Notes under the pieces: model-generated | Databases searched by the model: none | What the model was told of the DNA's origin: nothing | Seen by the model: only the letters and a program-made list of their open reading frames with translations | Position numbers and translations under genes: made by a program | Assembly (NCBI GenBank): GCA_900110595.1 | Contig: FOEZ01000002.1 | Location: 372,001 to 436,000, forward strand | Length of the DNA stretch: 64,000 bases | Source of the DNA: Arthrobacter sp. OV608 | GTDB taxonomy: Bacteria; Actinomycetota; Actinomycetes; Actinomycetales; Micrococcaceae | Direction of reading: 5' to 3' | Part shown: in pieces, positions 32,838-43,585 of the stretch | Layout: the number at the start of each line of letters is the position of its first letter | Numbering within the stretch: the stretch's first letter is position 1

Positions 32838-33404
32838 ATGGCTCAGGATCCTGTGGGGGAAGACAGGCCCCGGACCATGCCCCAAGGGGCGGCAGGTCCG
32901 CCTACGCCCCCAGGTTCCCTTGCCCCTCCACCCAGGCCCGGATTGTCCTGGTCCGCTCCGGCCCCCATTCCGGTTATCCCGGTGGCACCGCGGAACGTTC
33001 GGACCGCCCGCACACTGTGGCTGTTCAGCTTCGCTGCCGGGCTTGCCGTGCTCGTCGGATCCTTTATGACCCGCGAATCCCATCTGCAACGGCTGAAGCC
33101 GGTGGTGGCGGGGATGGCGCCCGGCGGGGACCCGGAAGCTGTCACCACAGCAACGGGCATCGTCTTCTGGGGCAGCATGGGGGCTGTCCTCCTGGTGATC
33201 CTGCTTGAGGCCGCCATGCTGGGCGTGGTGATGGGCCGGCGGGGCTGGGGCAGGTGGGCCCTGCTCCTCCTACTGGCGGGCCACGTCTTTGTCCTGCTCG
33301 TGGCGGCTGTGTTCCTGGTGCCCGACGGCGATGCGGGCAGCTACGTGATGCTGCTCTGGGGCCTTGAACTCCTGCTGGCGGTTGTTGGGCTGATGTTTTC
33401 CTGA
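32838..33404 (+). CDS. Membrane protein of unknown function
   Basis: A 188-residue protein with a Pro-rich cytoplasmic N-terminus (about residues 1-55) and four predicted membrane segments. It starts 7 bp after the PLDc_N-like gene and is probably co-transcribed. I recognise no family. Confidence 0.7.
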   Translation: MAQDPVGEDRPRTMPQGAAGPPTPPGSLAPPPRPGLSWSAPAPIPVIPVAPRNVRTARTLWLFSFAAGLAVLVGSFMTRESHLQRLKPVVAGMAPGGDPEAVTTATGIVFWGSMGAVLLVILLEAAMLGVVMGRRGWGRWALLLLLAGHVFVLLVAAVFLVPDGDAGSYVMLLWGLELLLAVVGLMFS

Positions 33405-33466: not shown

Positions 33467-34954
33467 CTAGGCGGACCGTGCCACCATCCCGGAGCATTCG
33501 GCCAGGATGCCTTCGCAGCTGCGGATGACCACCCTGCACAGCTCAAGGGCCGAGCGGTCGGTCAGCGGGTTTTCGGCCACGGCCCGCCACTGGTCCAGGC
33601 ACCGGCGGGCCGCTGAAGCCAGCTGGTCCGGGCCGGCATCGGAATCCAGTCCCAGCCTGGCGTGGGACGCTGCACCCCAGCCCCCGATAAGGCCCTCCGC
33701 TTGGGCGGCCAGCTCAATGGGCAGCGGTATGCCCGTGGTTCGCAGGGCTGCCAGCAGCCGGAGTTCACGGAACTCGTGGGCATTGACCTGCAGCCGTTCC
33801 AGCGCGGCCGCCAGCCGGCCTGTGCCCTCACGGGGTGAGGTGCGCATTAGGGCTTCCACCCCTACCAGGGCCGTTCTTGCCTTAAGTGCCTCGGCGCGGG
33901 CCTGGAACTGGCGCCCCAGCAGCTCCAGCAGCGGATGCAGCCCGCTGCGCCGGGCCAGTTCATGCGCCAGCGGCGTGGGATCAGTAAACCCGTTGCGGAT
34001 GAGGACTGCCGCGAGCCGGATGCCGAACAGGCCGTACCTCTCGAGCAGCGAGGCGCGGGCCGCCGTCGTCAGCCCTTCGGGGCCTGCCACCCGCAGGAAC
34101 CGGTCTGCGGACAACAGGAGCTTTTCCCGGTGCGCCCGTTCCATTCCGGCCAGGAGCCGCAGGGCCTCAAAGTCGGGCTGGCGCATGGTGCGGGCGCCTT
34201 GCGCCAGGAGCCCGGCCACCGGGACCACCCCCAACACCAGTTTCTGCAGGTTGTGGTCCCGGCGGTACCGCTCGGCGATGTCCCCCGCGGAGAGGAGGGA
34301 ATCGATCCGCCCCGCACCCACCTCATCGGCCCTGGAGAGCACGGCAAGGGCGTTGACAGTACCGGACCTCCCCGCCTCGGCGTCCTTGAAGGACTCGAGG
34401 AACCTCAGGTCGGATGCATGCATGTGCCGCATCAGGTAGATGATCGCGTCCGCCTCCGATGGCGTGTCCTCCGGGGTAAGGAAGCTGGTGGACCGTGCTG
34501 CCACATCGGTGGAAAGGGAGGCTATCCCAGGGGTGTCGATCAGGGTCATGTCCTGCAGTGCAGGTGAGGGCCACTCCACTTCCAGCCTGTCCACGTCGTC
34601 CGCCGTGGCGTCACCGCGGACAAACACCAGGCGGCCGTCAACGCGCTTCACGGGAAGGCTGCGCGGTTCTCCGGTCGCCGGGTAAAGGGTGATCCGGGGG
34701 GTGCGGCCGTAGCGGTACAAGGTCACAATGCGGGTGCACTCCGCGGTGTCAGTGGGCGCTATCTCTTCGCCGAGGATGGCGTTCAGGAGGGTGGACTTCC
34801 CTGCCTTCACCATGCCGGCAACCGCAACGCGCAGTGGTTCTTCCAGTCTCCGGGCATAACTTTGCAGCACTGCCACGGCAGCGGGGTCTTCCCGGTAGAC
34901 GCTCAACGCCTCCCGGACAAGGTCCGCGGCACCGGCGATGGTGGAGGGTGTCAT
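33467..34954 (-). CDS. Dynamin-like GTPase, IniC-like
   Basis: A 495-residue large GTPase. G1 is VAGMVKAGKSTLLNAIL (about residue 45), with the switch-I Thr in TDTAECTRIVTLYRYG. G3 is LIDTPGIASL. G4 is present only as LSRADEVG rather than N/TKxD, a noteworthy variant. The helical C-terminal half has no clear membrane segment, unlike its partner. It overlaps the upstream GTPase gene by four bases (ATGA). Order and pairing match mycobacterial iniA-iniC; orthology is inferred. Confidence 0.83.
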   Translation of the reverse strand: MTPSTIAGAADLVREALSVYREDPAAVAVLQSYARRLEEPLRVAVAGMVKAGKSTLLNAILGEEIAPTDTAECTRIVTLYRYGRTPRITLYPATGEPRSLPVKRVDGRLVFVRGDATADDVDRLEVEWPSPALQDMTLIDTPGIASLSTDVAARSTSFLTPEDTPSEADAIIYLMRHMHASDLRFLESFKDAEAGRSGTVNALAVLSRADEVGAGRIDSLLSAGDIAERYRRDHNLQKLVLGVVPVAGLLAQGARTMRQPDFEALRLLAGMERAHREKLLLSADRFLRVAGPEGLTTAARASLLERYGLFGIRLAAVLIRNGFTDPTPLAHELARRSGLHPLLELLGRQFQARAEALKARTALVGVEALMRTSPREGTGRLAAALERLQVNAHEFRELRLLAALRTTGIPLPIELAAQAEGLIGGWGAASHARLGLDSDAGPDQLASAARRCLDQWRAVAENPLTDRSALELCRVVIRSCEGILAECSGMVARSA

Positions 34955-36915
34955 CCCGCCCCTGCCACAGCTGGTGCCGCCCCCGCTGCGCCGGCTGCGG
35001 CGGTTGTGGCGGGGGGAGCTCCGGGATTCAAGGTGACGGGGTGGCCAGTCCGCACAGTGTCCGCAGCTGCTTCGGCGGCCACAGCCTCCGCGGCGCGCGC
35101 CAGGGCGTCGACCTTCTTCAGCTCCGCTTTGATTTCGCGGATGCGCACTTCCTTTTCCAGGGCATAGGTGGTGGCGGCTTTTTGCGCTGCGGCCACTGAA
35201 TCCCCCAGGGAGCGGTGGTGCTCGTCCGCGATGTCCGTGAAGTGGTCCCGGATGGAACGCTGTACCAGCCGCAGCCGGTCCTTGAGCTGTTTGCCCACCT
35301 GGAAGGTGACGTCGTCCAGTTGGCGGCGAACCAGGGCTTTCGCCTCGGCCTGGCGCCGCTTCAGCCTGGCTTCCTTGTCCTCCCGATATGCCTTGCGCCC
35401 CAGCAGCAGGCCGGCGCCCACGGACAAGGGGTTAATGAGGGCCATGCCGAAGATGCCCGTCAGCAAGCCGAACATCAGCACACCGCCGTAGGACCCGCGC
35501 ATTCCGATCAGCACCTTTTGCAGTGGATTGACCCTGCCACTGTCCAGCATCGGCATATCGTCCACCGGGTCCAGTGCGTCGCCGCTGTCCGAGACGTGCA
35601 GTACTGGCAGGGTCACCTCGCCGGCAGCGAAATGCTCCGCAACCTGGGCGGCCAGCCACTGGGCGCGTTCGCTGGTCCATACGAACGTGTCCGAAATGGC
35701 AGCTGCGGCGCACTCCTCGAGCCACTGGGAGAACTGGGGCCAGGCAGGTCCGGGATCACCGAGGTCGATGGCCGCCTCGGCTTCACGCTGGATCCGGCGC
35801 AGCCGGTCCCGGAGGTCATATTCCATGTCCGCGATCAGGTCGCTGATGCCGTCGCTGAGGGTAATCTGCCAGCGGGCGGACCGCTTTCGCAGCTCGTCGG
35901 CTTCGGCCTTGGCGACTTCGAGGCCAGCGATCATCTCCGGTGTTTTTCCCGGGTTTTCGAAGGCTGCAAGCTCTGCCTGCAGGGACAGCCGGAGGTGCTC
36001 GGTGACGGACAGCAGGTCCTGGCTCACGGAACGGCGCTGGAGCCGTTGTGCCTTGCCCACGATTTCCGTTCGCAGGTGTGTGATCAGGCCGGGGAAGCCG
36101 GACTCCACGTTCAATTCGGCATCCTGCAGGCGGGAGGCTTCAAGGCGGAGGTCGGAGGAGACGCTGAACAGGGGAATGTCCGGCGCCACGCCGGCAAGGT
36201 GGCCGCGGTCGATCTCCTCCACGCGCCGCCAGTCGGGGTAAAGGTCCGTCTTGGACAGGACGCCCACAACATTGGGCGTGATCCGCATGGCCTGGCGCAG
36301 GAAGCGCAGTTCCGGTTCTGTGTACTCCTGGGAGGCATCGGACACCAGCAGCATGGCATCAGCCGTGGGAAGCGCAGTGAGGGTGGTCAGGGTATGCGAG
36401 GAGTTCAGCCCGCCCACGCCCGGGGAGTCAATGACGGTGAGCCCGCCCGTGAGGAGTTTGCGGGGCAAATACACCTCCCCCGCCACGAGTTTTTTGCTGT
36501 TTCCCGGGTTGCCCCGCTCGGAAACATACGACGGCAGGTCCGCAATGGGAACAGGGTGCCGTTCGATATTGGCTTCGTCGGTGGCATCGGATCCCGCCCT
36601 GGGAACCAGGATCGCTGCGGAGGCGATATCGCCGTACTGGACCACGGTGGGGACCGACGTGGCGATGTCATCAGCGACCGGGCAGGCCGGAGCGTTCACC
36701 AGCGCGTTGATGAGTTTGCTTTTGCCTTGCTTGAATTCGCCCACGACGATGACTCGGATGCTGGGGTCCTCCAGCCTCCGCAAGGTCTGGTCGAGGCGCT
36801 TGCGCAGGTCGAGGCGGTCCCCGGTCCCGGTTAGTTCGAGGCCTTGCTTAACCAGCCCGGCGAGTTGCACAGTCGTCGCAGGTGGTGACGGTTTCGCCGG
36901 TCCGGCTTCTGCCAT
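34951..36915 (-). CDS. Dynamin-like GTPase with membrane paddle, IniA-like
   Basis: A 654-residue bacterial dynamin-like protein. G1 is VVGEFKQGKSKLINALV (about residue 60), the switch-I Thr lies in TSVPTVVQYG, G3 is VIDSPGVGGL and G4 is LSKTDLYP. A hydrophobic hairpin near residues 475-510 (GGVLMFGLLTGIFGMALINP, then SVGAGLLLGRK) could insert into the membrane, as in mycobacterial IniA. Long charged helices follow and an Ala-rich tail ends the protein. AAGGA precedes the start. It lies 20 bp after the IniB-like gene and is coupled to the IniC-like gene. Confidence 0.86.
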   Translation of the reverse strand: MAEAGPAKPSPPATTVQLAGLVKQGLELTGTGDRLDLRKRLDQTLRRLEDPSIRVIVVGEFKQGKSKLINALVNAPACPVADDIATSVPTVVQYGDIASAAILVPRAGSDATDEANIERHPVPIADLPSYVSERGNPGNSKKLVAGEVYLPRKLLTGGLTVIDSPGVGGLNSSHTLTTLTALPTADAMLLVSDASQEYTEPELRFLRQAMRITPNVVGVLSKTDLYPDWRRVEEIDRGHLAGVAPDIPLFSVSSDLRLEASRLQDAELNVESGFPGLITHLRTEIVGKAQRLQRRSVSQDLLSVTEHLRLSLQAELAAFENPGKTPEMIAGLEVAKAEADELRKRSARWQITLSDGISDLIADMEYDLRDRLRRIQREAEAAIDLGDPGPAWPQFSQWLEECAAAAISDTFVWTSERAQWLAAQVAEHFAAGEVTLPVLHVSDSGDALDPVDDMPMLDSGRVNPLQKVLIGMRGSYGGVLMFGLLTGIFGMALINPLSVGAGLLLGRKAYREDKEARLKRRQAEAKALVRRQLDDVTFQVGKQLKDRLRLVQRSIRDHFTDIADEHHRSLGDSVAAAQKAATTYALEKEVRIREIKAELKKVDALARAAEAVAAEAAADTVRTGHPVTLNPGAPPATTAAAGAAGAAPAVAGAG

Positions 36916-36935
36916 AGTGTGTCCTTTGCCTCAGG

Positions 36936-38030
36936 TCAGTCCTCGATGATCGCGTCATCCGCGGCCACCGCTGTAGTGACGTCAAGGTCATTGTCGGCCA
37001 CGATGACCGATTCGTCGATGGTGGTGAAGTCGGCATCAACGTCGCCAACCTCAACCGCGGTATGGGTGTAGTCCACTGTGTTGTCGGCGATAACAACGTT
37101 GTCCTCGACATTGGTGATCTCGTTATCGGCGAGAACAACGTTGTCCGTAATGGTGGTGTCCGTCGAGCTGTCGCTGTTGCCGACGTCCTCCAGGTCTACA
37201 TCAACGCTGTGATCCGAGTAGTCGGTAGTGTTGCCCACGTTGTCGAAATCAACGTCCGTGTTTCCAACGTCATTGAGGGAATTGTCGTTACCGGAATCCC
37301 GGACATCGATGTTCGTCGAGCTGTCCTCGCGGATGTCGGTGTTCCCCACGTTGTCCAGATCGGCATCAATGTCAACGTCGGTGTTGAAGGAGTCGTCGAT
37401 GTCCGTGTCCGTGTTGCCAACGCTCGCATCCCGGCCGGCGTGGATGGAGTTGTCCGTCGAGTGATCCTCGGAGTTGTCCGTGGTGTGGGAATCCTGGATG
37501 TTGTTGGAATCGTCAACATTGGCGTCGTCGCCGGCCCCAACGGCCCGGTCACCGGAGGCGATCACGGAATCGTTGTCGAACCACTGCTCCACGTCGCCGT
37601 CGGCCCAGACATTTTGGTTCACGGACTGGTCGGTGAAGGTGTCCCGGTCGTCCACCACGGAGGTGTAGGAGTAATTGTTCACTACATGGTGGAGCTGCTG
37701 GATGGCGTGTGCATGGTCCTCGTGCTCTTGGTGCCCGGCACTATTCCCGCTGGCTGGAGGCGGGGTGTAGCTGGTTCCGCCGCCGCCGTTGTGGCTCGTG
37801 GTGGCGCTGTTGCCGCCCATGTTGTAATCCCGGTCAAAGCGGGCAGCATTGACCGTAACGGGTGCGTAGTCCAGGACAACCGGCATCGCTGCGTCAACAT
37901 CCGCCGAGCAGACACCGCCCAGACCGTGGGCTTCAAGGGCGCGTTCCGGATCGTCCAGGAAGTCCTGGGCTGCCTGGCGGTCGCCGAAGAGGTGCATCAG
38001 GAACTGGACGAGATCGTTTGCGAGTGTCAT
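36936..38030 (-). CDS. IniB N-terminal-domain protein with acidic low-complexity body
   Basis: A 364-residue protein. Residues 1-52 form a helical IniB-type domain (LVQFLMHLFGDRQAAQDFL, DPERALEAHGL). Residues 75-100 are a Gly/Pro-rich linker. Residues 125-364 are almost entirely Asp, Asn, Thr, Ser and Val in irregular short repeats (DNVGNTDV, NVVIADN). No signal peptide or membrane segment is visible. The body is far more acidic than mycobacterial IniB, which is Gly/Ala-rich. A GAGGA ribosome site precedes the ATG. Leading the two dynamin genes is the mycobacterial iniB position. Function is unknown. Confidence 0.83.
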   Translation of the reverse strand: MTLANDLVQFLMHLFGDRQAAQDFLDDPERALEAHGLGGVCSADVDAAMPVVLDYAPVTVNAARFDRDYNMGGNSATTSHNGGGGTSYTPPPASGNSAGHQEHEDHAHAIQQLHHVVNNYSYTSVVDDRDTFTDQSVNQNVWADGDVEQWFDNDSVIASGDRAVGAGDDANVDDSNNIQDSHTTDNSEDHSTDNSIHAGRDASVGNTDTDIDDSFNTDVDIDADLDNVGNTDIREDSSTNIDVRDSGNDNSLNDVGNTDVDFDNVGNTTDYSDHSVDVDLEDVGNSDSSTDTTITDNVVLADNEITNVEDNVVIADNTVDYTHTAVEVGDVDADFTTIDESVIVADNDLDVTTAVAADDAIIED

Positions 38031-38202
38031 GTGGTTGTCCTCATCTTCTCGAAAATTGCCGGAGCGCCCGTAGTCCCAACCGGGCTTGCATCCAACGTAC
38101 GGGTCCCTCCGCGACCGGGCATCGGGCCCTTCCCCCCTACCCGATGTCCTCCCTCTGGGAAACTTGAGCGCCTCCGGTTAGGGGTTTAGGGGCCCAACGG
38201 AT
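38031..38202 (-). promoter_or_regulatory. Leader/promoter region of the IniB-IniA-IniC operon
   Basis: The 172-bp gap is the only sizeable space inside the cluster, so a separate promoter for the ini-like genes is likely. On the minus strand it contains CATCGGG and CCCGATG arms around a purine-rich loop (about 38112-38140), a possible hairpin. No confident -10/-35 pair was found. Confidence 0.35.
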
Positions 38203-40269
38203 TCATTCCTTTTGGCGGTCTTCGGAATCCAGTGCCAGGCGCAGCCTTGTCATCAGGTCTGATCGGTTTTCGGCGCCCAGGCGGCGGCGCATGCGGGCAA
38301 TGTGGTGTTCGGCAGTGCGCGGGGAGATGTAGATGGCCTCCCCGATTTCCCGGTACGTCTTGCCCTCAAGCACCAGCCTGGCCACTTCCTTTTCGCGGTC
38401 GCTCAGGCCCGAGCCGTCCGGGTTCGTCCCGTTGGTACCCACGGCCGGTGCATCGCGGGACTCCGGTACCCTGGACTTCCCGTTCCCTGCCTCGCTTGGC
38501 TGCGGGTGAAGGTCCCGGGCACAGGACAGCAGCCGCACCATGTCCTTGCGTTCCTCGGCACGCGCGGCGGCATGTCCGGCCAACCGTGCGCCTTCCCATG
38601 GCATACCCACCCTGCCCAGGGCCCGCGCCGCCGCTTCAACGTCGGCAGTACGGATCTTTCGTGCCAGCACTGTAACCCAGGCCTTGCCAGCGGCGGCAAA
38701 GACCGCGGCGAGGTGGCTGTGGGCCGCGGCCCGGGCCAGGGCGGTTGCATGGGGAGCCAGGTCTGCCGGGCTGTCACTGAGCAGTGCTGCCTGGACGGCT
38801 GCCCAGTGGAAGGGCACGGCCCACAGGGGCGGATCCCCCAAATGCCCCAGCAGCTGGTTCGCCTCGTCCAGGTAGTGTGTCACCCGGTGGGTTTCGCGGA
38901 GCCGAGCGGCAGCTATCATCAGTTCACCCCACGGCAGGAGGCTGTAAAGGTCCACCGAGATGTGCAGCATGGCTTCATGCGCCCGCTCCCAGGCCATGAC
39001 AAGTTGCGCAATTTCGCCGTTGCGCCGGGCGATCCCGACTTCCAGTGCCGCACACATGAACTCATCGCGGGGGACGAGCGGCCAGTGGTTGGCTTTCGAG
39101 GCCTCATTGATGGCGAGCCGTGCGTCCTCAAGCCTGTCCTGCTGCATGGCCGACCACGCCTGAAGCAGGAAGAGCCTGGGCTTGGCTGCGTTTCCGCCCT
39201 GGCCCGCCGCCACTGCTGACATGCAGACTGTCTCTGCCAGATGGGGTTCTCCGGTGTGCAGGGCGAGCAGTGCGGCCAACGCCGCTGGAGTGTCCGGGAG
39301 GGGAAGCGCCGCACCTGTCCCGTTGAGCATGTCCGAGGCATGGATCAGCACGGGGAGTGCCCTGTGCGGCTCGACAGCCAGCGACTCCATGATTCCCTTG
39401 CCCGTTTCTGCGAGGGCCACTGCCAGCAAGGTGGGAGCGGCCGGTGGCGCTTCTGCCCGGAAGAGTGACTTGGCGCCGCGCACGTTGCCACTGCCGATCA
39501 TGGTGACGGCGGCAAGCGGTGCAGACGTGCCTGCTCTCGAGGCGCCCAACCAGCTGTACGCGTCCCCGCCCCGGGCCAGCATGCCGCGCTGGGCCCACAC
39601 TGCTGCTGCCACATCCACACCACGGCGGACGTCCGGCGGATCAGCACATACCAGGAGCGTATCGATAATCCGGGTAGCGGTGTCCAGGTCCCCGTTGCCC
39701 ACGGCTGCCTGGGCACGCCGTGCGGCGGTGCCGAGCTCATCGGCTCCTGCCAGCAGTGCCTCGTCATAGAGTTGGGCGGCCAGACCTGGATCCTGTTCCA
39801 GCGCCTTGTCACCTGCGTGTTCCAGCTCGGCCGCAACCCGGGGATCGGCGAGCCCGCCGCGAGCCAGTTCGCGGGCCAGGTCTCCCAGCGGCTGGCCGTG
39901 CTCGGCATAGGCGGACACCAGCTCACGTTGGAGCGCGTGCACCCTGGTTGTGGGGGCAACTGTCAGCAGGGCATGCTGGGCAGGTCCTACTACTGTTCCG
40001 TCCGGCGTCAGAAGACCCGCGGATTCTGCCCGCTCCACCAGGGCGTCAAGCCCCTCCACATCGCCGCCGTCGATCTTCCGCTGCAGGTCAGCAGGCAGCG
40101 GGCCGGGCAAGGCAAAACCAACAGACAGTGCCAGGAGGAGTTCGCGGACCGCCGCATTCGCGCCTTTGAGCTGCCCGGCCATCTGCTCGGCGGCATGCGG
40201 CAAGTGGCTGTGGTTCAGCTCCACCGGCAGGAAACCATGATCTGCCAAGTGCACCTCGTTGCCGGTCAT
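38203..40269 (-). CDS. Large LuxR-family transcriptional regulator
   Basis: A 688-residue regulator. The C-terminal 65 residues are a LuxR/FixJ helix-turn-helix: LSDREKEVARLVLEGKTYRE, then ISPRTAEHHIARMRRRLGA. The rest is alpha-helical, Ala/Leu-rich and TPR-like, as in the sensor half of LAL/MalT regulators. I find no P-loop, so the N-terminal ATPase of full LAL proteins is missing. The start lies one base after the Hsp70-like stop, implying translational coupling. It probably controls the cluster; the signal is unknown. Confidence 0.85.
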   Translation of the reverse strand: MTGNEVHLADHGFLPVELNHSHLPHAAEQMAGQLKGANAAVRELLLALSVGFALPGPLPADLQRKIDGGDVEGLDALVERAESAGLLTPDGTVVGPAQHALLTVAPTTRVHALQRELVSAYAEHGQPLGDLARELARGGLADPRVAAELEHAGDKALEQDPGLAAQLYDEALLAGADELGTAARRAQAAVGNGDLDTATRIIDTLLVCADPPDVRRGVDVAAAVWAQRGMLARGGDAYSWLGASRAGTSAPLAAVTMIGSGNVRGAKSLFRAEAPPAAPTLLAVALAETGKGIMESLAVEPHRALPVLIHASDMLNGTGAALPLPDTPAALAALLALHTGEPHLAETVCMSAVAAGQGGNAAKPRLFLLQAWSAMQQDRLEDARLAINEASKANHWPLVPRDEFMCAALEVGIARRNGEIAQLVMAWERAHEAMLHISVDLYSLLPWGELMIAAARLRETHRVTHYLDEANQLLGHLGDPPLWAVPFHWAAVQAALLSDSPADLAPHATALARAAAHSHLAAVFAAAGKAWVTVLARKIRTADVEAAARALGRVGMPWEGARLAGHAAARAEERKDMVRLLSCARDLHPQPSEAGNGKSRVPESRDAPAVGTNGTNPDGSGLSDREKEVARLVLEGKTYREIGEAIYISPRTAEHHIARMRRRLGAENRSDLMTRLRLALDSEDRQKE

Positions 40270-40270
40270 G

Positions 40271-42346
40271 CTAGACCCCCGTATCTGGAGAGGTGACGGA
40301 TTCAGGAACGTCAGATGGGGTCGCCGAAGCTGTGGGCGTTCCTGTCTGGGGTTGCGTAGCCTCTGGAGCTACTACGGGTGAAGAGGGAATCACGGTCGGC
40401 TCGGGCGGCGCCGCCGGAGACGCAGTCCCAGTCGGCTCGGGCTCCGCCGTCGGAGGAGGGTCAGTCGCAGTCGGCTCGGGCTCCGCCGTCGAAGGAGGCT
40501 CAGTCTCAGTGGGCCCCGGCTCCCCCGTCGAAGGAGGCTCAGTCACAGGCGGGACCGGCTCACCCGTTACGGGATCCGTCGCCACCGGCTCGCCCGTCAG
40601 CGGATCTGTCGGCACCGGCTCGCCGGTGACGGGGTCAATGGCTACGGGTGGTGCGGCATTGGCGTCCGGGGCCACGGCACCAGGGCCGGCTGCGGCGGGA
40701 CCTGCGGGCCCGCCCGTCGCAACGTCAAGCCCGGCTACCGCGGCCGGGCCGTTTTCCGCTGCCACCCTCCACAACGGCCGGCTGGTGGGTGACGCTTCAA
40801 CATCAAGGCCCGGGCCGCTGTAAGGCACGGCCTCATTGGTCATGTCCGCTCCAACACCGGCTGCCGGGAGTACGGCTGCCGCAGCAACTGGCCCGCCCCC
40901 TGCCCCGCCGGCACTGTCGGCAGTCGGATCCGGTTCAGGGGCAGCGCCCGCCTTCGGGACAAAGATGGCGGTGAGGTCAGTGAATCCCGCAGGGCTCTGA
41001 GCCGTAGTCGCCGTAAGGACCGAGACCAGTGCAGCGGCGGCAGCGATGGCCGTCACCCGAACTGTGGGCTTCGGCGCGTGGGCGCCGCCGTGCACATGGG
41101 CAGGTGCCACCACGCCCGCAACTGCACCACCCGCCGTCGTACCCTTGCGGGACCAGCTGGCATGGCGGCTGGCCGCGTGCGCGCTGGTGCCGGGAGTGAG
41201 TCCGACGGCGGTGCGCGCGGCTCCGGCAGGCAACGCCGCCACGGCTGCCCGGGACTCTGCCTCCGCGCGTGCCAGCACAGCTGACAGCGCCGCACCCAGG
41301 CAGATGGAGGACTTAGGATCGGCATCGACGGCGATGGGCCGGTCCAGCTGTTCGGAAATCAGCTGCGCCACGAGCGGGATCCGCGATGAACCGCCAATCA
41401 ACAGCACGGCGGAGAGATCGGCCGGTTCCAGCTCCAGCTGGGCCAGCGTCTGCTCCAGCGCCTCGACGGTGTCCCGGACAGGTTCCTCTATCAGCGCTTC
41501 AAATTCCGAACGCACCAGGCGGATCTGCTGCTGGAAGCCGGGAAGGAGCACTGAAATGGTGGCCTCGCTGTCCGAGGAGAGCGCTTCCTTGGCTTCCACG
41601 CACTCGCGCCGCAGCCTGCCCAAAGCTCCGCGGACTCCGTCATCTGCGGGGTTGAGAGTCGAGAGGACGCCGCCGGTGTGCTCTGCGACGTAGCGGAAGA
41701 CCTCGGCATCGAAGTCGGCACCGCCCAGGTTTTCGATGCCCTCCGGGCGCCCCAACAGCTGGAACCTGCTGCTGCCTGCTTTGCGCAGGACAGCGGTATC
41801 AAAGGTTCCGCCGCCAAGATCGTAGACGGCGATGGTGCTGCCCACTTCCACGCGGACCTGGGAGGCGTAATACAGCGCCGCCGCAACCGGTTCGGTGACG
41901 AGCGTGATGTTGTCCAGTCCCTGTGCGCCCATGGCGGCCAGGATCATGGAGGTCCGGTGGGTGCCCCACGCGGCAGGATGGGTAACGACGACCTCAGACG
42001 GCTGCGCGCCCTCGCGCTCTACGGCCCGGTCCACCACCCAGCGTGCCATGGTGGCAAAAACATCCTCCGGTGGCAGGGACAGGCCGCCCACGGAAATGGG
42101 GACTGCATCGCCCACCCGGCGCTTGAATTCCCGCACCACCTGACCGGGGAAATCGAGGCTGCGGCGTTCTGCGGCCTCCCCCACCAGGAGGGAACCTTCC
42201 TCGGGGTAGTACACCACTGATGGCACGGCGGTTCCGCGAAGTCCCAGCGGCAGGCACTCCGCGGCAGGGGAAATACCCTGGCCAAAGCGGGAAACGGCGG
42301 CAGCAGTGAAACTGGTCCCCACATCAATGGCGAGAACATAGTTCAT
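40271..42346 (-). CDS. Membrane-anchored Hsp70-like protein with Pro/Thr-rich tail
   Basis: A 691-residue protein. Residues 1-365 are an Hsp70/actin-type ATPase: phosphate-1 VLAIDVGTSFTAAAV, the TEPVAAALYYA segment, phosphate-2 AVYDLGGGTFDTAV (about 174) and adenosine LLIGGSSRIPLV (about 316). No canonical substrate-binding domain follows. Residues about 430-450 are one membrane segment, and 450-691 are a Pro/Thr/Glu-rich, probably extracytoplasmic tail with TGEPV-type repeats. ATG 42346 has GAGG 7 bp upstream; the frame extends 15 codons further. It leads the cluster and is coupled to the LuxR gene. Confidence 0.85.
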   Translation of the reverse strand: MNYVLAIDVGTSFTAAAVSRFGQGISPAAECLPLGLRGTAVPSVVYYPEEGSLLVGEAAERRSLDFPGQVVREFKRRVGDAVPISVGGLSLPPEDVFATMARWVVDRAVEREGAQPSEVVVTHPAAWGTHRTSMILAAMGAQGLDNITLVTEPVAAALYYASQVRVEVGSTIAVYDLGGGTFDTAVLRKAGSSRFQLLGRPEGIENLGGADFDAEVFRYVAEHTGGVLSTLNPADDGVRGALGRLRRECVEAKEALSSDSEATISVLLPGFQQQIRLVRSEFEALIEEPVRDTVEALEQTLAQLELEPADLSAVLLIGGSSRIPLVAQLISEQLDRPIAVDADPKSSICLGAALSAVLARAEAESRAAVAALPAGAARTAVGLTPGTSAHAASRHASWSRKGTTAGGAVAGVVAPAHVHGGAHAPKPTVRVTAIAAAAALVSVLTATTAQSPAGFTDLTAIFVPKAGAAPEPDPTADSAGGAGGGPVAAAAVLPAAGVGADMTNEAVPYSGPGLDVEASPTSRPLWRVAAENGPAAVAGLDVATGGPAGPAAAGPGAVAPDANAAPPVAIDPVTGEPVPTDPLTGEPVATDPVTGEPVPPVTEPPSTGEPGPTETEPPSTAEPEPTATDPPPTAEPEPTGTASPAAPPEPTVIPSSPVVAPEATQPQTGTPTASATPSDVPESVTSPDTGV
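40390..40640. repeat. Internal repeats encoding the Pro/Thr tail of the Hsp70-like protein
   Basis: About ten imperfect copies of a 27-33-bp unit built on GTCGGCTCGGGCTCCGCCGT and related forms. On the minus strand they encode EPEPT, TEPPST and DPVTGEPV units. Such DNA repeats commonly vary in copy number between strains. Confidence 0.75.
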
Positions 42347-42499
42347 GGGTACCTCAGGGCAAACTCGCATTTCGCCGGCAAGCTTCATCACTGGCGAACG
42401 TCACCAAGGTAGCATCACGGCAGGACGGGGAACACCCCTATTGCTACACCGATTGGTTATTTGCCTGCAGATCCCCCGAAGTTGGGAAGAATTCCCTGC

Positions 42500-43585
42500 T
42501 TAGAGCCCGGAGTATGAGTGCAGTCCGTTGAAGAACTGGTTCACGATGGTGAAGTTGAAAATCACGCACAGGTAGCCAACGATCGAGAGCCAGGCGGCAC
42601 GTGTTCCGGTCCAGCCGCGGGTTGCGCGGGCGTGGAGGTAGCCGGCGTAAACCACCCAGATCACAAAGGTCCAGACTTCCTTGGTGTCCCAGCCCCAGAA
42701 CCTGCCCCAGGCCTTTTCCGCCCAGATGGCACCGAACATGAGGGTGAACGTCCAGCCGATGAAGGCAATGGCGTTGATCCGGTAGGACAGGTTTTCCAGG
42801 CTCAGCGCGGACGGTACCAGGCGCATGAAGCCGAGCTTGTCCGCGCCGCCGGCGGCAACGGTTTTTTGCCGGTGGGACTGGACCAGTTGCAGGGCGGACA
42901 TAGCGAACGTCAGGGTGAACAGCGCGGAGGAAAGCACTGCGATGGACACGTGGATGATCAGCCAGTAGCTCTGCAGGGCGGGAACCAGGTGGCCCACCGG
43001 GGTCCAGTACGCCACGGAGGCGGCCACCAGCATGATGATGCCCAGGCCCACCACGAAAGTGCCCAGGAAGCGCAGGTCGCGGCGGATCAGTACCAGCAGG
43101 AATACCGCGATGGCCACGAAGGCGCCGGTGGTGAGGAATTCGTACATATTGCCCCACGGCACGCGTCCGGCTCCGAGGGCGCGGGTCAGCACGCCGGCTC
43201 CGTGGATCACTGCGCCCAGGACGGTCAGGGCCACGGCCACCCGCGCGGGGGCGCGGCGTTCGGCGGCGTACCGCATGTCGCCGTCGGCAGTCATGACTCC
43301 CCCGCCTCCTGTTCCGGCTGGCCGTGCAGTGGACGACGACGGCCGCTCAGTCCTGCCCGCCGGCCCGGCCAGGTGGGACTCGCTGCGGGCCGCCGCGCCT
43401 GCGGCAACCGGCACCTTGGCGGACTCGTCAGCCTGCGCAGCTTTGAGGTCGATCGCGCGCAGGGCCTTGCTGCTCTTCGCAAGGTCCCATGCGAAGGCGA
43501 TGAAGGCTACCGTGTACGTGCCGGCCGCCAGCAGCATAAAGAGCTCGCTGTACTGGCCCATGGTTTCGTTGATTCCGAACGGCAT
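42500..43585 (-). CDS. ccsB: Cytochrome c biogenesis protein CcsB/ResC
   Basis: A 361-residue multi-pass membrane protein of the system II heme-export and cytochrome c synthase complex. Near the C-terminus WGRFWGWDTKEVWTFVIW is the Trp-rich heme-handling (WWD-type) motif. Conserved His residues flank it. A hydrophilic loop of about 70 residues after the first membrane segment is longer than in Bacillus. The start overlaps the resB stop (TAATG). It is the last gene of the operon. Confidence 0.92.
   Translation of the reverse strand: MPFGINETMGQYSELFMLLAAGTYTVAFIAFAWDLAKSSKALRAIDLKAAQADESAKVPVAAGAAARSESHLAGPAGRTERPSSSTARPAGTGGGGVMTADGDMRYAAERRAPARVAVALTVLGAVIHGAGVLTRALGAGRVPWGNMYEFLTTGAFVAIAVFLLVLIRRDLRFLGTFVVGLGIIMLVAASVAYWTPVGHLVPALQSYWLIIHVSIAVLSSALFTLTFAMSALQLVQSHRQKTVAAGGADKLGFMRLVPSALSLENLSYRINAIAFIGWTFTLMFGAIWAEKAWGRFWGWDTKEVWTFVIWVVYAGYLHARATRGWTGTRAAWLSIVGYLCVIFNFTIVNQFFNGLHSYSGL

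Follow-up and report, generated by a model that had tools for sequence, protein, structure and literature searches.

An actinobacterial ini-type gene module with an Hsp70-like partner in Arthrobacter sp. OV608

Why should genes of the ini type, treated in the literature examined as a mycobacterial drug-response system, stand in Arthrobacter sp. OV608 next to the gene of an Hsp70-like ATPase? The question is raised by five genes on the minus strand of a 64,000-nucleotide stretch of this genome (the window; contig FOEZ01000002.1, positions 372,001 to 436,000; coordinates below are those of the window unless a genome or locus label is given). Based on sequence comparison, the gene set is a conserved actinobacterial module related to the isoniazid-inducible ini system of mycobacteria, and the Hsp70-like gene belongs to this module in general and is not peculiar to the OV608 genome. 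The ini system is thereby widened to a module that extends to Arthrobacter-like and other genera and that includes, besides a conserved promoter, an Hsp70-like partner and an additional predicted membrane protein. It is likely that the module senses and repairs damage of the cell envelope. As to the mechanism, we propose, at a probability of roughly one half, that the Hsp70-like ATPase, a predicted membrane-anchored protein, gates an IniR-type regulator, which switches on iniB-iniA-iniC via CCCCTAA boxes, and that the GTPases encoded there remodel the stressed plasma membrane.

The gene set and its conservation

In the order of transcription, the five genes encode the Hsp70-like ATPase (40271..42346), an IniR-like regulator of the LuxR family (38203..40269), an IniB-like protein (36936..38030), and an IniA-like (34951..36915) and an IniC-like GTPase (33467..34954) of the dynamin family. 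Between the first four lie 1, 172 and 20 bases, and the last two genes overlap by 4; all four junction sizes are exactly those of the initial annotation, which had read the genes as one cluster of a Hsp70-like protein, a large LuxR regulator without an ATPase domain and an ini-type trio. The start codon of the Hsp70-like gene, ATG 42346, was picked from the sequence, agrees with the initial annotation and is likelier than GTG 42391, from which a longer frame would begin. Both GTPases of the trio were recognised, and the IniB domain was found with 67.1 bits (IniB_NTERM, NF038175; cut-off 40). The five families are present as annotated, but a sixth gene, open reading frame (ORF) 188, had been overlooked.

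For comparison, 46 loci from class and family genomes and 80 from contigs of named genomes were combined with the window to give 127 loci, of which 126 are distinct (L148, a duplicate of L075, was dropped). Those from named genomes represent the best 80 of at least 457 IniR relatives and are skewed towards Micrococcaceae. Exclusion of 20 of the 127 loci with short flanks left 106 distinct loci in which iniR has 6 kb or more of sequence on either side. In 100 of these 106, all five families are co-located, a number that is conditional on IniR since IniR served to collect the loci. Whether the Hsp70/LuxR pair and the ini trio are only rarely found together had been set as a check beforehand, and this count speaks for one cluster. 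Taken singly, the Hsp70-like, IniA and IniC families are each present in 105 loci and IniB in 102: the Hsp70-like match is missing at L090 and the GTPase matches at L126, and IniB was not found at L111, L137, L163 and L170, of which L137 has several broken frames.

Tests in the reverse direction were made with the IniB domain in the class genomes and with ORF188, the Hsp70-like protein and IniA in Micrococcaceae genomes. Of 393 class genomes, 41 have IniR, and the IniB domain was found in 40 of these and in no other. Among 100 Micrococcaceae genomes, co-occurrence is all-or-none, with IniR, Hsp70-like, IniA and ORF188 confined to the identical 10 genomes. Cut-offs were strict for the Hsp70-like protein (E ≤1e-40) and IniA (E ≤1e-30), to set aside DnaK and other dynamins; IniR was counted by a long match of at least 428 bits, and the remaining genomes reach at most 43.9 bits, by the helix-turn-helix (HTH) domain alone. 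Two genomes of the window's own genus (G009, G086) show no long IniR match, Hsp70-like protein, IniA or ORF188 at these cut-offs; the module is therefore accessory. Among the carriers are Arthrobacter-like organisms and other genera that are not known to have mycolic acids or a mycolic-acid envelope.

Such a patchy distribution, 10 of 100 Micrococcaceae genomes, would also be seen if the genes were mere neighbours of independent function that travel together as an accessory island. Moreover, ccsB and menA flank the module in 25 of the Arthrobacter-type loci as well as in the window, and the shared position could be plain inheritance. Elsewhere, however, the set stays together away from ccsB and menA, and it does so through 18 layout strings over the 106 loci, a few of which reflect broken or missing genes; the conservation of the iniB promoter across families, described below, likewise argues against an island, which we consider very unlikely. 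The commonest layouts are all five genes in one direction (39 loci) and hsp70-iniR divergent from iniB-iniA-iniC (24 loci). Among the five families, the Hsp70-like gene is directly upstream of and co-directional with iniR in 97 of 106 layouts; the gap between the two is within 100 bases in 83 of the 106 loci, and in 23 they overlap by 4 bases. Two apparent fusions were rejected: the 1447-residue Hsp70-IniR frame of L143 is due to a run of unknown bases that joins both genes, and at the supposed IniB-HTH fusion of L140 there are 100 unknown bases and a copy of the IniR tail.

As in the mycobacterial iniR/iniBAC system (PMC5760070), an IniR-type regulator adjoins IniB-, IniA- and IniC-type genes, the IniB N-terminal domain is present, and the CCCCTAA boxes upstream of iniB are common to the window and all 19 loci of group g50, which are probably mycobacterial. 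Unlike there, the regulator in the window has no ATPase domain, the adjoining Hsp70-like protein is catalytically intact by alignment, all five genes point in one direction with ORF188 as an addition, and the organism is Arthrobacter-like. IniR, iniBAC and fission by IniA are already in print, as is one sentence on a dnaK-like gene next to iniR of M. smegmatis (PMC5760070). The Hsp70-family gene adjoining iniR in the window matches that sentence, beyond which we find that 105 of 106 loci have such a gene and that some lineages have retained its catalytic residues and others have lost them. A literature search that covered few subscription papers gave no account of the Hsp70-like gene as a general ini partner and none of a CCCCTAA promoter; the promoter query was noisy owing to drug names in -inib, and the motif may be in print elsewhere. 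Nor was an account of ORF188 met, a nameless gene that was not searched for by name.

The iniB promoter and two probable transcription units

The 172-base gap upstream of iniB contains, on the minus strand, two direct CCCCTAA boxes (38178..38192; 38192-38186 and 38184-38178), an inverted partial box TAGGGG (38134..38139), the CCGAT-type element CCCGATGC at about the -35 position (38119..38126) and TACGTT as the putative -10 of iniB (38094..38099). A CCCCTAA lies at most 300 bp upstream of the IniB domain in 90 of 116 loci, compared to a mean of 4.4 loci in shuffled sequences, and upstream of iniA in none of the 116. By group, with family labels of nameless genomes assigned in this analysis, the box is present in 34 of 40 Micrococcaceae, 19 of 19 g50, 20 of 23 Pseudonocardiales and 3 of 3 Geodermatophilaceae loci, in 4 of 5 Micromonosporaceae (counted with L096), in 3 of 5 other f11 loci (counted with Nocardiaceae) and in L103 (1/1); in other Micrococcales it is found in 6 of 20, and the shorter CCCCTA in 17 of 20. 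The distance from the CCGAT-type element to the start of TANNNT is 26-27 bases in 96 of the 99 pairings found at 15-30 bases, with about 0.7 to 1.1 pairings per position in shuffled sequences.

A strict composite promoter pattern gave 38 matches, some of them overlapping, in 28 of 393 genomes. The pattern was built from these same promoters, and its informative part is its rarity elsewhere: 35 of the 38 matches precede an IniB domain by at most 300 bp, and genomes without IniR account for the remaining three. Read backwards, the pattern matched 14 times, in 13 of the 393 genomes, and 16 of the 41 IniR genomes have no match to the composite pattern.

Of the 43 unidirectional loci, 35 have CCCCTAA before iniB and none has it before the Hsp70-like gene. 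Over all layouts, 47 loci have the box before an Hsp70-like gene, which is in keeping with the layouts in which divergent Hsp70-like and iniB genes share one intergenic stretch. Since the CCCCTAA promoter sits before iniB and not before iniA or a unidirectional Hsp70-like gene, hsp70-iniR and iniB-iniA-iniC are probably separate transcription units, with iniB as the controlled one; a single operon of all five genes is not favoured, as the 172-base gap contains the conserved promoter. Scans for terminators and sigma-70 promoters found nothing, which says little in such a genome. IniR is the mycobacterial activator of iniBAC; induction of iniBAC is IniR-dependent, and in M. tuberculosis an IniR chromatin immunoprecipitation (ChIP) peak is directly in front of it (PMC5760070). 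From this peak and the co-occurrence of regulator and boxes, we infer that IniR binds the CCCCTAA boxes.

Two other upstream sites deserve mention. Clustered CCCCTAA-type boxes lie close before a 160-aa ORF elsewhere in the OV608 genome (C26:83769-83798 in G000; L193:4770-4799); this site may be a further target or chance, as the reversed-pattern control gives three matches. The octamer TGTAGCAA is found upstream of the Hsp70-like gene in 17 of the 43 unidirectional loci (in the window at about 42350-42500) and is a possible separate control site.

An ATPase beside a regulator without one

The regulator of the window was matched by the IniR model (NF038181) with 382.5 bits, from position 220 to 826 of 827. 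The curated equivalog score of 750 bits is not reached, and the protein is therefore classed as an ATPase-less relative of IniR and not as IniR proper. The absence of an ATPase domain, as initially annotated, stands; the general label of a large LuxR regulator is to be revised to IniR relative, based on profile and tree, in which its nearest relatives are from Arthrobacter sp. 9AX and Pseudarthrobacter siccitolerans. The N-terminal AAA+/STAND ATPase domain that characterises IniR is missing: Walker A was not found in the protein, the predicted structure is all-helical without an NTPase core, and there is no space for such a domain, as iniR begins 1 base after the Hsp70-like gene. The C-terminal LuxR-type HTH is present (GerE, 47.6 bits), and the solenoid between has its best match in domain III of MalT and belongs to the MalT-domain-III-like TPR domains; Foldseek alone gave only generic TPR proteins among the matches listed. 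STAND regulators switch via their nucleotide-binding oligomerisation domain (PMC4381067). It is this domain that MalT of E. coli, a STAND regulator, has and the IniR relative of the window does not.

The neighbouring protein shares the nucleotide-binding domain with Hsp70/DnaK chaperones. It was matched by HSP70 of Pfam with 149.2 bits over positions 34-377 of the 599-position profile, and the catalytic positions (D, K71, E, D, T, GG) are retained in the alignment. It differs from the chaperones in that no substrate-binding domain was found, the HSP70 match ending at 377 of 599 and the remainder of the protein being of low complexity: a single predicted membrane helix (about 41056-41000, from a hydropathy scan) is followed by a 242-residue P/S/T-rich tail. 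Sensing through such an outer tail, as had been suggested, cannot be general, because a simple hydropathy rule predicts no membrane helix for 27 of 132 Hsp70-like proteins, some of which are cut by contig ends.

The two proteins were compared over the 126 loci. An IniR without ATPase domain is accompanied by an intact Hsp70-like protein in 37 loci and by a degenerate one in five; the ATPase domain is present together with an intact Hsp70-like protein in 28 and with a degenerate one in 49; the other seven have no Hsp70-like match or have IniR at a contig edge. Of the 43 ATPase-less IniR rows, 35 form one Arthrobacter-type clade (Shimodaira-Hasegawa-like approximate likelihood ratio test 90; the tool's mark is 95). 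In this clade the tested Hsp70-like residues are intact except in L126, where the Hsp70-like gene is shortened and GTPases were not found, and L169, where the gene is split between two frames; the gene of L137 is also split. The eight other rows are scattered, and four of them (L104, L149, L160, L188) may be truncated or broken copies. The reverse is seen in the g50, Lentzea, Geodermatophilus and Micromonosporaceae loci, in which no Hsp70-like copy has the catalytic lysine and Walker A of IniR is kept wherever the N terminus is covered. A second Hsp70-like gene is frequent in g50 loci (L076, L078-L085, L092), after iniR or iniC; no g50 copy shows the lysine, although for the second copy of L079 that part lies outside the frame.

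We regard this reciprocal pattern, which is one of sequence, as a lead rather than a law. As a statistical law it was rejected in view of L100, L102 and L103, the 28 loci with both sites intact and the few independent events. Nor does the rule hold that one of the two proteins must be an ATPase: L100, L102 and L103, the real exceptions among the five loci above, lack both sites. One could speculate that the ATP switch of a STAND factor was moved to a separate membrane protein, in that the Hsp70-fold ATPase took over gating of IniR, after which IniR of the Arthrobacter clade lost its ATPase domain, while the mycobacterial type and several other lineages kept it and the Hsp70 active site decayed. 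This course of events is doubtful; if true, it would present a STAND-type transcription factor gated by an Hsp70-fold ATPase without substrate-binding domain.

The gating that we propose has a precedent in MalT, which MalY and other inhibitory proteins sequester (PMC10427625). In this picture hsp70-iniR would have a promoter of its own, and the iniB unit would be transcribed when needed. With an intact envelope, the Hsp70-like protein, made together with IniR and predicted to be in the membrane, would bind IniR and keep it inactive; upon envelope damage or stress it would let go, and freed IniR would occupy the iniB boxes and activate iniB-iniA-iniC. ATP turnover by the partner could provide the switch, because this IniR is without a nucleotide-binding oligomerisation domain. 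The plasma membrane would then be remodelled by IniA and IniC, members of a family with demonstrated membrane fission; IniB would serve the two as a flexible organiser and ORF188 would be a membrane partner, and the last two roles are the least certain part of the proposal.

Several observations weigh against this proposal. In the 49 loci mentioned, IniR bears its ATPase and the Hsp70-like protein is missing at least one of the three catalytic residues tested; L100, L102 and L103 have neither the IniR ATPase domain nor the Hsp70 lysine. At L090, iniR, iniB, iniA and iniC occur and an Hsp70-like gene was not found, and the dnaK-like gene is mentioned by Boot et al. for M. smegmatis only (PMC5760070), which together suggests that IniR can work without the Hsp70-like protein. 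In eight of the 106 loci the gene is present but not directly upstream of iniR. Finally, a regulator other than IniR, HpoR, has been reported at the iniBAC promoter of mycobacteria, and its motif is a different one (PMC13413693).

Alternatively, the Hsp70-like protein could be an effector, an actin/Hsp70-fold ATPase acting with IniA, IniC and ORF188 on the membrane, with IniR alone sensing a small molecule, in mycobacteria trehalose. The response of iniBAC to trehalose in M. marinum (PMC5760070) would fit, as would the extra same-strand Hsp70-like gene right after iniC in five loci (L081-L084, L092), the two at L111, and the Hsp70-like genes apart from iniR in L097-L099, L104, L110 and L188. 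The prevailing place of the gene directly before iniR, on the same strand, speaks against an effector, and in the unidirectional loci the missing CCCCTAA puts it probably outside the iniB regulon; in divergent loci the two cases are indistinguishable. An effector role is possible but rather unlikely in our view. If the Hsp70-like partner does gate IniR, laboratory soil bacteria would allow a direct test of how IniR senses damage to the envelope.

IniB, the GTPases and ORF188

The IniB-like protein has a conserved helical N-terminal domain, predicted with block means of 86-94 for residues 1-50, followed by a D/N/S/T-rich region of low-confidence prediction (mean predicted local distance difference test score of the whole model 49.9). 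A fold search with this low-confidence model gave no match. In Micrococcales IniB there is a second conserved stretch, from DQSVNQN-WADGDV onward (window 37530-37649, residues about 128-167), for which no Pfam family was matched in the window protein. In family f20, IniB-type N-terminal domains are found near the cluster in very long frames of 1556 and 1593 residues (G110:C1:2412039, G129:C20:53186).

The IniA-like protein (Dynamin_N, 71.9 bits) is similar to IniA of M. smegmatis (6j72) over residues 27-604, with 468.5 bits and E 3.3e-139. M. smegmatis IniA catalyses GTP-dependent membrane fission (PMC6715688), and its lipid-interacting loop V-L-G-R-K reads L-L-G-R-K here, with R-K aligned; the R-K pair is not general, as the strict loop pattern fits only 42 of 114 IniA relatives. 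The adjoining IniC-like protein is a second dynamin-family GTPase (Dynamin_N, 57 bits; 2j68, 43 bits). Two unlike dynamin-family genes with a 4-base overlap recall the paired bacterial dynamins (CjDLP1/2; IniA/IniC), from which the pair of the window differs by its linkage to IniB, IniR and the Hsp70-like gene. PADLOC related IniA to LeoBC (42.5 bits) and LeoA (35.1) and IniC to LeoA (33.5) and LeoBC (23.2), which would fit a phage-defence module around LeoA/LeoBC-like dynamins. These scores are far below that of M. smegmatis IniA, other PADLOC matches reach only about 16 bits, and IniR, IniB and the promoter are all of the ini type, which makes phage defence extremely improbable.

ORF188 (32838..33404, plus strand), the sixth member of the module, encodes a small predicted membrane protein with four membrane-helix-like stretches and is convergent with iniC. 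No Pfam family was matched by the protein of the window, and two of 15 relatives weakly match DUF6264. With a profile built from relatives, it was found in 59 loci (58 distinct), in all 59 convergent with iniC and at most 0.8 kb from its end, in Micrococcaceae, other Micrococcales, Geodermatophilaceae and Rhodococcus oryzae; in the genome search the 10 positive Micrococcaceae genomes were the IniR-bearing ones. It was not found in 68 of the 126 distinct loci, of which 54 extend 700 bp or more past iniC; every g50 and every Pseudonocardiales locus is among them, as are two of Pseudarthrobacter (L118, L122). Among the 120 database relatives listed of 198, the named ones are mostly called 'hypothetical protein'. 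Outside the cluster, the OV608 genome has a further dynamin-family match above the Pfam cut-off (G000:C22:527494-527898).

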